Origin: Bacteroidales bacterium
Lineage (GTDB): Bacteria > Bacteroidota > Bacteroidia > Bacteroidales > P3
Direction: 5' to 3'
Length of the DNA: 64,000 nt
NCBI GenBank assembly: GCA_016292015.1
Contig: JAEEZY010000015.1
Coordinates: 1 to 64,000 of the forward strand
Shown here: positions 23,325 to 27,358 of the stretch, piece after piece
How the letters are laid out: each line of letters opens with the position of its first letter
Position numbering within the stretch: position 1 is the stretch's first letter
Notes under the pieces: generated by a model
What the model was told of the DNA's origin: nothing
The model's input: only the letters and a program-made list of their open reading frames with translations
The model's database searches: none
Position numbers and translations under genes: made by a program

Positions 23325-25010
23325 TTACTTGAATCGGCGTGCCTGCCAGCCTTCCTTGGCTTTGTTTCCAAGTATCATCTTGGGTTGCTGCAACTTGCCC
23401 TGCAGCGACGACTCGTAGTTCAACTGCTTGTCTATGTTCTCATACAATGTGCCGTAGTCGATGTTGCCGCGCGTGCGTTTCAGCTCTTTCAGCATGAAGT
23501 AGGTCAGGAATCCGTGGTGCTGCTGGTCAAAGCTATAGACGGCTTTGTTCCAGTCGGCGGCGGCGAACATGACAATGTCGTTACGGATTCGCATGCCTTT
23601 CATCTTCTTGGCTTTCTTCTTGATGGTGAACAGGGTGTGCCCGTTTCTCTGCGTGCCGTCGAAGCCGGCGTCCAGTATCAGCGTTAGGTTCTTGAACTTC
23701 ACTCGGTTGAACCAGCTGTTGCATATCGTGTCGAGGGCTATGCACTGCTTGATGAGGTTCTTGGCTTCGCATTTCTTCAGCATCATGTCGTCGGGCAGCG
23801 AGTTCTTGCCGTTGAAGGCTTTGATTCCTGTGGCGTTGATGTCGGTCGGGATGATGTAGGGGTTGTAGTTGGCGTCTGTGAATCCGTGACCGGCATAGTA
23901 GAGTATGATGTTGGCCTCGCCGTTGAGGGCTACGGTGATGTCCTTAAGCCAGTTGACGCCTTCGTTCTTGATGACCTCGGCGTTGGCGTTGCGCAGCAGC
24001 TTCACGTGGCGCTCGGGTATGCTCAGCGTCTTCACACAGTATTGATAGAATATCTCTCCGTCGTTGCTCGCAAAGGGCACGTTGGGCAGCGGCTTGGCGT
24101 AGTCGCAGTTGGTTATAATCAGCGCGAAGGTGGTCGTGTTCGTCCCGGCTTCGTTCACGGGGATGTTGAAATCCACATACTCGTCGTTGATGAGCTTGTT
24201 CGTCATCTCGGCCATTATCTCGTCGAAGGCGCCGTGCACGATTATCTCGATGCTGCTGCGGCGATATTGCGACCCCTCTTTGTCGTAGGTCTTGGTGATG
24301 AACTCATACTTGTTCGTGGCGCGTCTAAGCAGCGACACGTTGCTTTCCAGGTAGCCCTTCACGCTCTGCCCCCTCAGGTATGCCAGCTGGGCGTTGGTCG
24401 TGATGCCTTCCTCTTTGTTCACCGAGATGCGTATGTTCTCGCCGTTGTAGTTCGTGGGGCAGTATTTAAACTCGCCATACTCTCCGTTGTACGGTATGTG
24501 GCTTATCTCTATGTCGTCGGTGGTCGAGGTGATTCGCGTGGTGATCGACTTCCCTTCACGGAACAAATCTTTCGATATGTCCTCTACCATTATCTTCGTC
24601 AGGTTGCATATCGCGCGTGCCGAGTTCGAGGCGTTGTAGTCATACACTCCGATGGGGTAGTCGTCGGTCACACCCTCTATGTGCTTGCAGTTGTACGAGA
24701 TGTCGAAAACATAGTTGTACTCGCGGCGTCCGTCTTCGCGCAGCGCCTCGGCCACATCCGTCTTGATCGTGACGAATGTCTCGTCATACAGCTTCTCCTC
24801 GTTCGGCAGGTTTATCAGTATCTGCTCTGCCTGCTTGGCCATCGTCTGCTGTCGCTGCTGCACGTCCTGGCGCAGGTAGTTCATTATCGCGTCGCGATAC
24901 TGTGAGTTCACCGTGATTTCTGATGCCTTCTGTGCTCTGGCTGCGGTGGGCAGAAGGGCCACGATTGCCACTACCACCGCGATTGCTTTTACAAAGTAGA
25001 ATTTCTTCAT
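23325..25010 (-). CDS. exported caspase-like (C14) protein lacking the catalytic Cys
   Basis: A 561-residue protein with signal peptide MKKFYFVKAIAVVVAIVALL. Residues 30-285 are beta-rich and unrecognised. Residues 290-480 match the caspase/metacaspase p20 fold: FALIITNCDYAKPLPNVPFA at the start and YYAGHGF with the catalytic His375. At the place of the usual DACFSG the sequence is LILDAGFDG, so the nucleophile Cys is Gly449 (codon GGC at 23664-23666). A VMFAAADWNKAVYS block follows and the fold is otherwise intact, which suggests a maintained but non-proteolytic protein rather than a decaying one. A TAACTTTG box at 25078-25085 (minus) may be its promoter. Confidence 0.85.
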   Translation of the reverse strand: MKKFYFVKAIAVVVAIVALLPTAARAQKASEITVNSQYRDAIMNYLRQDVQQRQQTMAKQAEQILINLPNEEKLYDETFVTIKTDVAEALREDGRREYNYVFDISYNCKHIEGVTDDYPIGVYDYNASNSARAICNLTKIMVEDISKDLFREGKSITTRITSTTDDIEISHIPYNGEYGEFKYCPTNYNGENIRISVNKEEGITTNAQLAYLRGQSVKGYLESNVSLLRRATNKYEFITKTYDKEGSQYRRSSIEIIVHGAFDEIMAEMTNKLINDEYVDFNIPVNEAGTNTTTFALIITNCDYAKPLPNVPFASNDGEIFYQYCVKTLSIPERHVKLLRNANAEVIKNEGVNWLKDITVALNGEANIILYYAGHGFTDANYNPYIIPTDINATGIKAFNGKNSLPDDMMLKKCEAKNLIKQCIALDTICNSWFNRVKFKNLTLILDAGFDGTQRNGHTLFTIKKKAKKMKGMRIRNDIVMFAAADWNKAVYSFDQQHHGFLTYFMLKELKRTRGNIDYGTLYENIDKQLNYESSLQGKLQQPKMILGNKAKEGWQARRFK

Positions 25011-25238
25011 ATCGTTATTTTGGATTATCTGATGAATGTATATTCGGATTATCAGTTATATACGAATTTACAAACTGCAAAGTTACACAATATTGTAAAT
25101 ATAAACACCCTCGTTTGCGAAAGTTGTTAATAACCAATTGTGAATAACGTTGTCAAATGCATAGATTTCGAGCAATTATATAAGCATGGGCTCTAATACT
25201 GACTCTAGTTACCCATACTGATGCTGGTTTGGTAAAAA

Positions 25239-25315
25239 TGACAAAATAGCACCCTGATTTTATAGAAAAAGTGACAAAAATACCCGCTTGTTTTATAGAA
25301 AAAATGACAAAATAT
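25239..25315. repeat. 33-bp direct repeats in the left arm of the element
   Basis: TGACAAAA starts at 25239, 25272 and 25305, an exact 33-base period. The units also share TTTTATAGAAAAA before the next TGAC. They resemble iterons or protein-binding repeats. The opposite arm has only a single TGACA-like word in inverted orientation. Confidence 0.7.
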
Positions 25316-25378
25316 TGCGTAATTCAAACAAACAGAGTGACTTGTGAAAATACAATATCAAAGATGCGATAGCCTTTG

Positions 25379-25546
25379 CTCTAGTTTGTAATTTGACTGA
25401 TTTTTCAAAAGCCTCGAAGAGGCTGTACTTTAATAACTCCACACTGAAAATTCACTGAATTTTCAGTGTGGAGTCAAGAACATGACTTTTTTCCGCGTCT
25501 TGAAGAGACGCTATTTCAGAATAATCAGTCATTCGTTGAACTAGAG
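25379..25546. other. predicted branched structure: outer stem enclosing three hairpins
   Basis: An outer two-part stem (8+8 bp with an 8x8 internal loop) encloses three hairpins. Hairpin A is AGCCTC/GAGGCT (25410-25424). Hairpin B is an 18-bp arm pair 25437-25454 / 25456-25473, almost a perfect palindrome. Hairpin C is GCGTCT/AGACGC (25495-25511). Loops of A and C share GAAG. Whether it acts as RNA or as DNA cruciform is unknown. Confidence 0.6.
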
Positions 25547-25659
25547 CCTTTATCATTTGTAGTATTTTTTGTGTACTCTTATGTGAACCTATCTGGGTGC
25601 TATAAAAACAGAACCTAATTGTAACACTCTGTCATAATGGCATCAGTATGAGAAAAACA

Positions 25660-25689
25660 AATCGGGTCGCCAATGCCGGCGACCCGATT
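25660..25689 (-). terminator. terminator of the LRR gene
   Basis: AATCGGGTCGCC (25660-25671) and GGCGACCCGATT (25678-25689) form a 12-bp stem with a six-base loop. On the minus strand it is followed by TTGTTTTTC, so it ends transcription of the LRR protein gene about 25 bases after its stop. Confidence 0.88.
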
Positions 25690-25714: not shown

Positions 25715-27358
25715 CTATCTTCTCACTACAACCTTTTGAGGTTGAGTATCGCCCACTTTCACCATATAGACTCCAGCCGATGTGACAGGAATCTCAACCG
25801 CTGCCTGCTGACCGCTACCTGCTGCCTGCTTAATAACCCTCCCCATTACATCGCAAACAACGATGTTCTGATTGCAAACTGCCGCCTGCTGACCGCTAAA
25901 GTCTATTATAATCGTGTTGCCGCGAGTATATACTTTCATTCCGTCAGCGGAGGTCATGTCGTCGATACCCTGCGTGCCGCCGCCGTCAGGCACAAAGTAG
26001 CCTATTAGTTCGGTATCTTCAGTTACGGTGAGAGAATATGGGTTGGCGGTGTTGCCGTCGCTCCAGTGGTCGAAGCGGTAGCCGCTGTTGGCGGAGGCGT
26101 ATATGACTGCCTGCGGATTGGTGCAGGTCGGCATAGTGAGAATCTGCACCGCACCCATATTATTGTCAGCCGAGACGGCGGAGAAAGTGAAGGCACTCCC
26201 TTCGATAAAGTTGGAGAAATAGCTCCAACGTGAATAGTACGATGCCGATGCCCCGCAGGGGATATAGACAGGTATGGTGTTGGTAACGCCGTAGAAAGCA
26301 TTGCTCCCAAGTGTTGGGGCTACGTATGCATGAGAATGTATCTCGGTTATTCCACTGCAGCCATAGAAGGCACTGTAGCCAATGGAGGTGACGGAGCTTG
26401 GGATGTTTAACGCTCCCGTCAATCCTGTGCAGCCATAGAAGGCCCTGTAGCCAATGGAGGTGACGGAGCTTGGGATGTTTAACGCTCCCGTCAATCCTGT
26501 GCAGCCTTCGAAGGCGCTGCCGCCGATGGTTGTGACGGAGTTGCCGAGTATTACGGATGTCAGTCCGCTGCAGTTATAGAAGGCATAATCGACGATGGAT
26601 GTGACGGAATTTGGGATGATGGTGTTTTTGCAACCCAATAAGAGTGTATTTGTTGCAGTTTCAATTAAGGCGTTGCAGTTGTTGCGGCTGTCATATATGG
26701 TATTGTCGTTTTCTACAATAATAGCTGTTAGTCCGCTGCAGTCATAGAAGGCTCTTTCTCCGATGTAGGTGACAGAGTTTGGAATGGTAAGAGTACCGGT
26801 TAGTCCGCTGCAGCCCTTGAAGGCATATTCTCCGATGGAGGTGACAGAGTTTGGAATGGTAAGAGTACCGGTTATTCCACTGCAGCCATTGAAGGCACTG
26901 TTGCCGATGGAGGTGACGGAGTTTGGAATGGTAAGAGTACCGGTCAGTCCGCTGCAGTCACAGAAGGCACCCGGACCGATGGATGTGACGGAGTTGGGGA
27001 TGGTGACTGAGGTCAGGCCAGTGCAGCCTTGGAAGGCGTTGTATTCGATGGATGTGACCGAGTTGGGGATGGTGATGGAGGTCAGACCTGAGCACTGATA
27101 GAACGCATTATCGCCGATGGAGGTGACGGAGTATGTGGTGCCGTTGTATGTTACCGTTGAAGGAATAGTGAGGTCGCCGGAGGGGTAAGTGTTGTATGGG
27201 TTAGCCCAATTATTGTTTTGATTTGTCACCTCTGCATTGCCGCCAACGATATTGTAATATAAAGTCTGTCCCGACGGAGCGATGGCAGAGAAATCAAAAG
27301 CCCAAGACTGCAACGCAATTCCAAGAAGGAATGCCAGAAAAAGTAATGTTTTTTTCAT
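25715..27358 (-). CDS. BspA-like leucine-rich-repeat surface protein with T9SS sorting domain
   Basis: A 547-residue protein with signal peptide MKKTLLFLAFLLGIALQSWA. Residues 70-365 hold about a dozen LRR_5 (BspA / Treponema-type) repeats of 23-24 residues, consensus LTIPNSVTSIG..AF.GCSGLT. Two neighbouring repeats (SIGYRAFYGCTGLTGALNI and its neighbour) are almost identical in DNA over 72 bp, which indicates recent slippage duplication. An InlB-like module follows (SGYRFDHWSDGNTANP), then TQGIDD and a T9SS C-terminal domain (NIVVCDVMGRVIKQ to PQKVVVRR). BspA-like proteins mediate adhesion to host matrix or other bacteria. It starts 12 bp after the upstream DUF6884-like gene, so it may share its transcript. 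Confidence 0.92.
   Translation of the reverse strand: MKKTLLFLAFLLGIALQSWAFDFSAIAPSGQTLYYNIVGGNAEVTNQNNNWANPYNTYPSGDLTIPSTVTYNGTTYSVTSIGDNAFYQCSGLTSITIPNSVTSIEYNAFQGCTGLTSVTIPNSVTSIGPGAFCDCSGLTGTLTIPNSVTSIGNSAFNGCSGITGTLTIPNSVTSIGEYAFKGCSGLTGTLTIPNSVTYIGERAFYDCSGLTAIIVENDNTIYDSRNNCNALIETATNTLLLGCKNTIIPNSVTSIVDYAFYNCSGLTSVILGNSVTTIGGSAFEGCTGLTGALNIPSSVTSIGYRAFYGCTGLTGALNIPSSVTSIGYSAFYGCSGITEIHSHAYVAPTLGSNAFYGVTNTIPVYIPCGASASYYSRWSYFSNFIEGSAFTFSAVSADNNMGAVQILTMPTCTNPQAVIYASANSGYRFDHWSDGNTANPYSLTVTEDTELIGYFVPDGGGTQGIDDMTSADGMKVYTRGNTIIIDFSGQQAAVCNQNIVVCDVMGRVIKQAAGSGQQAAVEIPVTSAGVYMVKVGDTQPQKVVVRR

Follow-up and report, generated by a model that had tools for sequence, protein, structure and literature searches.

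A probable worn MITE with IS1595-type ends around a REP-like three-hairpin unit in an intergenic gap of a Bacteroidales genome

The window analysed here, a stretch of 64,000 nt from a Bacteroidales bacterium (contig JAEEZY010000015.1, positions 1 to 64,000), contains a symmetric segment of 437 bp at 25214-25650. Two minus-strand genes border the gap in which it lies, one at 23325-25010 and a leucine-rich-repeat-like one at 25715-27358. According to a preliminary description the segment consists of nested inverted arms, internal hairpins and 33-bp direct repeats, lacks a coding gene and is more symmetric than expected by chance. All arms, hairpins and repeats were located at the claimed sites, and an ORF scan of 25214-25650 yielded neither a long ORF nor a coding gene. 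The symmetry was indeed beyond chance: the MFE of the segment was -131.8 kcal/mol compared with -84.6 for shuffled sequences (z = -8.8; 0 of 100 shuffles were as low), and between the 200-nt flanks 9 inverted 8-mers were counted where 0.94 were expected (P = 0.0005). For the 11-bp outer pair by itself, shuffled flanks gave a P of about 0.0125; the outer arms are modestly above chance. Folded alone, the inner 172 nt reached a z of -10.1 and account for most of the signal; with this part removed and the flanks joined, z was -3.1. Because of this imbalance the two layers are treated apart: the 437 bp are two nested layers of very unequal strength, not one element. Just beyond the segment, at 25660-25689, a perfect 12-bp hairpin (AATCGGGTCGCC/GGCGACCCGATT) was observed, a possible terminator for the leucine-rich-repeat-like gene. 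The features are:

25214-25224 (+) and 25640-25650 (-): outer inverted arms CATACTGATGC, perfect over 11 bp, 88% over 16 bp
25234-25314 (+): 33-bp direct repeats containing TTTATAGAAAAARTGACAAAA (repeats at 25234-25299 plus a third partial unit), from the sequence
25246-25258 and 25591-25603: inverted pair, present in the sequence
25377-25548 (+): inner element, 172 nt, probable IS1595-type MITE frame with three-hairpin REP-like core; from family copies and fold (z above)
25378-25386 and 25539-25547: inverted pair GCTCTAGTT, perfect
25394-25406 and 25519-25531: inverted pair TGACTGATTTTTC, present in the sequence
25378-25405 (+): left terminal inverted repeat GCTCTAGTTTGTAATTTGACTGATTTTT; matches the end CGCTCTAGTTTGATTTAGGACTGATTTTTT of an IS1595-family IS in genome G028
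25519-25548 (-): right terminal inverted repeat, read as GGCTCTAGTTCAACGAATGACTGATTATTC; aligned with the G028 IS end
25410-25511 (+): three-hairpin core, REP-like unit; matched by covariance model R2, the unit flanking Y1 genes elsewhere
25410-25424 (+): hairpin 1, AGCCTCGAAGAGGCT; compensatory changes across 48 copies
25436-25474 (+): hairpin 2, perfect arms of 19 bp each, separated by 1 nt; from sequence and covariation
25495-25511 (+): hairpin 3, GCGTCTTGAAGAGACGC; foot on the complementary strand ATAG here, GTNG in most relatives; from covariation and foot count

The outer layer, of which the direct-repeat block is a part, was searched for in 119 genomes of the genus. The outer left arm had only three other matching places, all confined to the region of the 33-bp repeats. 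The window's own genome had no outer repeats other than those in the window, and a plasmid search with these repeats gave no match. IS21-like ends had been suspected for this layer and were not supported. One of the three matches (L300, genome G245, contig C8) is located directly upstream of an AAA_14/DUF4143 gene; another of the three (L298) had the repeats, with no such gene seen, and a gene-less relic is present in genome G236. At L300 (1495-1577) a repeat of about 33 bp that contains CTTGGAAAAGTGACAAA is present three times; the array ends at the start codon of the gene and is possibly an operator or promoter array. The outer layer probably is a separate, older feature in which the inner element landed. 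That it once lay upstream of an AAA_14/DUF4143 gene, since lost, is a guess, because the single gene-linked case is thin.

The excess of outer arms and inverted 8-mers over chance would agree with the whole 437 bp being the remnant of one larger transposon with ends CATACTGATGC. We consider this highly improbable. Arm and ends had no full second copy in the 119 genomes, a target duplication was not seen and most of the symmetry is explained by the inner element alone. The pair CATACTGATGC/GCATCAGTATG, previously proposed as terminal inverted repeats, does not form the ends of any repeated element that was found.

The inner 172 nt belong to a family of repeats interspersed in the genomes of an uncultured genus of ruminant-gut Bacteroidales. 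The preliminary description had suggested looking for copies in the same and in related genomes, for target duplications and for covariation. Copies of the inner element were found in 48 of 59 genomes of the genus, dozens of them in some, and species carried between 0 and about 70 copies. The window's own genome contained further copies, full and half. Among the matches listed in a pattern scan of public genomes were only uncultured Bacteroidales/Bacteroidetes, mostly from ruminant gut. Full copies with the frame were mostly 172-184 nt long (window copy, 172 nt). The diversity of the family is underestimated because most copies were gathered by their similarity to the window copy; the pattern behind many of them favours one version of hairpin 1. 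Assemblies of the congeners are fragmented, and contigs break at repeats. The inner element had one weak 40-nt phage match, which was taken as chance. Several variants were noted. A half copy with an identical flank is present in two species (L005, own genome, C30; L019, genome G034, C38); therefore it is an old insertion, probably vertically inherited. At three loci of G028 (L031, L056, L057) an extra insert of about 50 nt splits hairpin 3. A second three-hairpin type, unframed and mostly with GTGCC..GGCAC hairpins, was observed in the own genome (G000) at C30:50057 (L264), C20:1201 (L265) and C27:54669-54829 (L266).

Forty-eight diverse copies aligned over the three hairpins, with a conserved linker of approximately AATCTCAATAAC joining hairpins 1 and 2. 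In this alignment 98.4% of the cells were paired and 9 of 21 pairs had two-sided changes; 0 of 500 shuffles scored as high and slid controls were far lower. Covariation in the three-hairpin core thus was found. The window core matched covariance model R2 with 74.7 bits (E = 3e-16), the window sequence itself being among the model sequences. The strong conserved fold and the covariation could mean that a structured RNA, i.e. a regulator, an attenuator or an RNA stabiliser, has spread through the genomes and that the covariation reflects RNA function; the mostly intergenic location of the copies is compatible with this (65 of 71 framed copies did not overlap a long ORF). We regard an RNA as very unlikely. 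Hairpins recognised as single-stranded DNA predict covariation equally, and an Rfam search gave no match above the gathering score. Position relative to neighbouring genes was inconsistent (10 convergent, 7 divergent and 19 tandem), and the wide span of copy numbers between species also argues against an RNA. As an explanation of the covariation the large structured RNA, which had been put forward initially, is superfluous.

Framed copies start with GGCTCTAG or GGCTCTTA and end with AGAGCG. In copies with anchored ends (n = 61) the 8-bp TSDs were exact in 35 and had at most one mismatch in 43; shuffled pairs gave 0.65 and 1.5, respectively. A+T made up 90% of the exact duplications. Such duplications are a further point against a structured RNA. 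A search with the end sequence alone retrieved two elements from G028 which share these ends, are 1,118 bp long and code for a transposase of the IS1595 family (NF033547, E = 2.3e-54; PF12762, E = 1e-12). The window ends TGCTCTAGTTTGTAATTTGACTGATTTTT and GGCTCTAGTTCAACGAATGACTGATTATT align with the ends of these elements and are closely similar. At the two G028 copies (L303 and L304, identical transposase) a target duplication was not visible at either site, and in G030 and G064 the surroundings of the IS1595 genes contained no matching ends. ISL3 had been suggested as the source of the frame by the GGCTCTT-like ends. The ends of an ISL3 element of the genus are GGTTC, with an apparent duplication of 8 bp; ISL3 was dropped because the IS1595 insertion sequence matches the ends far better. 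The family has ends in common with an IS1595-family IS and is short, non-coding and multicopy, as is typical of IS1595-type MITEs. The initial suggestion of a MITE or transposon remnant holds for 25377-25548, given the copies, the covariation and the TSDs in relatives; it fails for the whole 437 bp.

Ends and duplications as such would equally fit a plain IS1595 MITE in which the inner hairpins are mere filler; any likeness to the flanks of Y1 genes would then be due to insertion of the MITE, or of its hairpins, at such places. However, the core was also found outside this frame: it occurs between different end sequences and forms tandem or mirrored arrays.

Y1 genes (PF01797) were present in 40 of 59 genomes of the genus. 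In 166 kb of Y1 loci the model built from the 48 copies had 86 matches at E<0.001; in 70 kb around the ISL3 genes of the genus none was significant (a single match, E = 0.43). The E-values of the covariance model are rough and the model is not wholly independent of the Y1 loci because one of its 48 sequences (L140) adjoins a Y1 gene. Among 58 Y1 ORFs the unit was within 250 bp on both sides in 22 (20 converging), on one side in 10 and on neither in 26. In a sample of the order the model matched 22 of 149 genomes, including that of the window. Three loci picked from these matches, belonging to two other genera, had the arrangement unit-Y1-unit at distances of 6-19 bp (L277, L278) or 6 and 66 bp (L279). 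Other genera also had inverted unit pairs close together without a gene in between, REPIN-like. In a Y1 tree, a quick tree with some open forks, the unit was found in 21 of 24 rows of one clade compared with 8 of 28 of the other large clade; 0 of 500 shuffles were as low. The unit thus stands beside one Y1 clade in several genera. In G030 the dispersed copies and the Y1-side units have the same hairpin 3 (GCGTGTCGAAGACACGC) and agree in most of the loop of hairpin 2 (TAAGCGACCAA); in some genomes (G012) the Y1-side hairpin 3 is unlike that of the dispersed copies examined. On the complementary strand the tetranucleotide before hairpin 3, its foot, reads GTNG in 36 of 48 dispersed units and in 21 of the 30 units next to Y1 genes (8% in the background). 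The commonest foot is GTCG; GT[AG]G is the tetranucleotide of REPs and REPtrons.

The inverted position of the unit on both sides of Y1 genes is at odds with a structured RNA. Symmetric flanking at short distance, also in other genera, and the tracking of one Y1 clade leave a plain IS1595 MITE very little room. The tie of the three internal hairpins to Y1 transposase genes is beyond what the reading of a single sequence could show.

Most of the Y1 proteins have about 150 amino acids and carry the motifs DH[VI]H and YIxxQxxHH. Three were scored: two passed the IS200/IS605 cut-off, one just missed it and all missed the RAYT cut-off (NF047646). The nearest solved structures are IS200/IS605-type transposases. 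Judged by their motifs, and not by the published profile, the proteins appear to fit TnpA_Y1 subclass 1.2.

We propose, with a probability of roughly 0.8, that the inner layer (172 nt) is a worn, non-autonomous element in which an IS1595-ended MITE frame surrounds a REP-like three-hairpin unit, the presumed substrate of a Y1/HUH transposase. The unit would be recognised as single-stranded DNA, cut and spread by the Y1 protein; position, symmetry, foot and clade point to such a putative action. The framed version would have been moved by an IS1595 transposase. In relatives the frame inserts into AT-rich spacer DNA, presumably by a DDE transposase, which would generate the 8-bp duplications. Target duplications are not expected from a Y1 enzyme. 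Mobilisation by either enzyme is what we infer from these features. A more general version is tentative and of rather low probability: a Y1/HUH substrate may repeatedly have gained double-strand transposon frames, here of IS1595 type and elsewhere with other ends, be spread by either enzyme and be the dedicated repeat of a Y1 clade thought to be repeat-less.

The window copy retains both frame ends and all three hairpins. As to target duplications, which the preliminary description had suggested checking at empty sites, they exist in relatives, yet none was present at the window copy in the expected register (ATAGCCTT versus TTTATCAT). The window genome had no Y1 transposase and no IS1595 transposase at E<=0.001; because the genome is 97.6% complete their absence is likely, not certain. 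The window copy has the foot ATAG. Since a TSD is missing, the foot is changed and neither transposase was detected, the copy is probably dead, a relic.

REPs, REPINs and RAYT-associated REPtrons (PMC3733652, PMC6006769) likewise comprise many extragenic palindromes, inverted around a Y1/HUH gene, with a GT[AG]G-like foot, arrays and inverted doublets. Here, repeats on both sides of the Y1 gene were found for the 22 of 58 ORFs (20 converging), three of them in other genera, not in the window's genome. However, the present unit has about 95 nt, three hairpins and mainly a GTCG foot, and its Y1 protein reaches or nearly reaches the IS200/IS605 cut-off but not that of the RAYT model. Unit and Y1 gene are a REPtron-like arrangement, which we do not file as a classical RAYT REP. 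With IS200/IS605 insertion sequences the system shares the Y1 transposase family and hairpins near the ends; yet the flanking units are inverted with respect to each other, whereas the end hairpins of IS200/IS605 have the same orientation. IS1595 insertion sequences and their MITEs share the ends, the AT-rich 8-bp duplication in relatives and, in the MITEs, the absence of a coding gene; the cargo, in contrast, belongs to another transposition system, being a REP-like unit. Joining of REPs to unrelated inverted repeats, in hundreds of copies, is reported from P. putida and P. fluorescens; the sections of that report which deal with these fusions describe no IS-ended frame with target duplication (PMC3733652).

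TnpA_Y1 subclass 1.2 is characterised by the motifs DH[VI]H and YIxxQxxHH, and the survey lists no REP for it (PMC6006769). The proteins studied here share the motifs, the size and the occurrence in Bacteroidetes, yet one clade has an apparent cognate repeat. If this holds, a cognate repeat for a subclass-1.2-like Y1 and the packing of such a repeat in an IS1595 MITE would be new, a provisional statement given the partial coverage of the literature. The unit is a concrete candidate for the DNA partner of Y1 proteins beyond IS200 and the classical RAYTs. Possibly, a REP-like unit between the ends of an unrelated transposon has a route into genomes without a Y1 gene. Another Y1 clade (L213, L215, L216, L221, L222) is flanked by different palindromes, CCAGCCnnnn..GGCTGG, often after GGTAG, apparently a second REP family.
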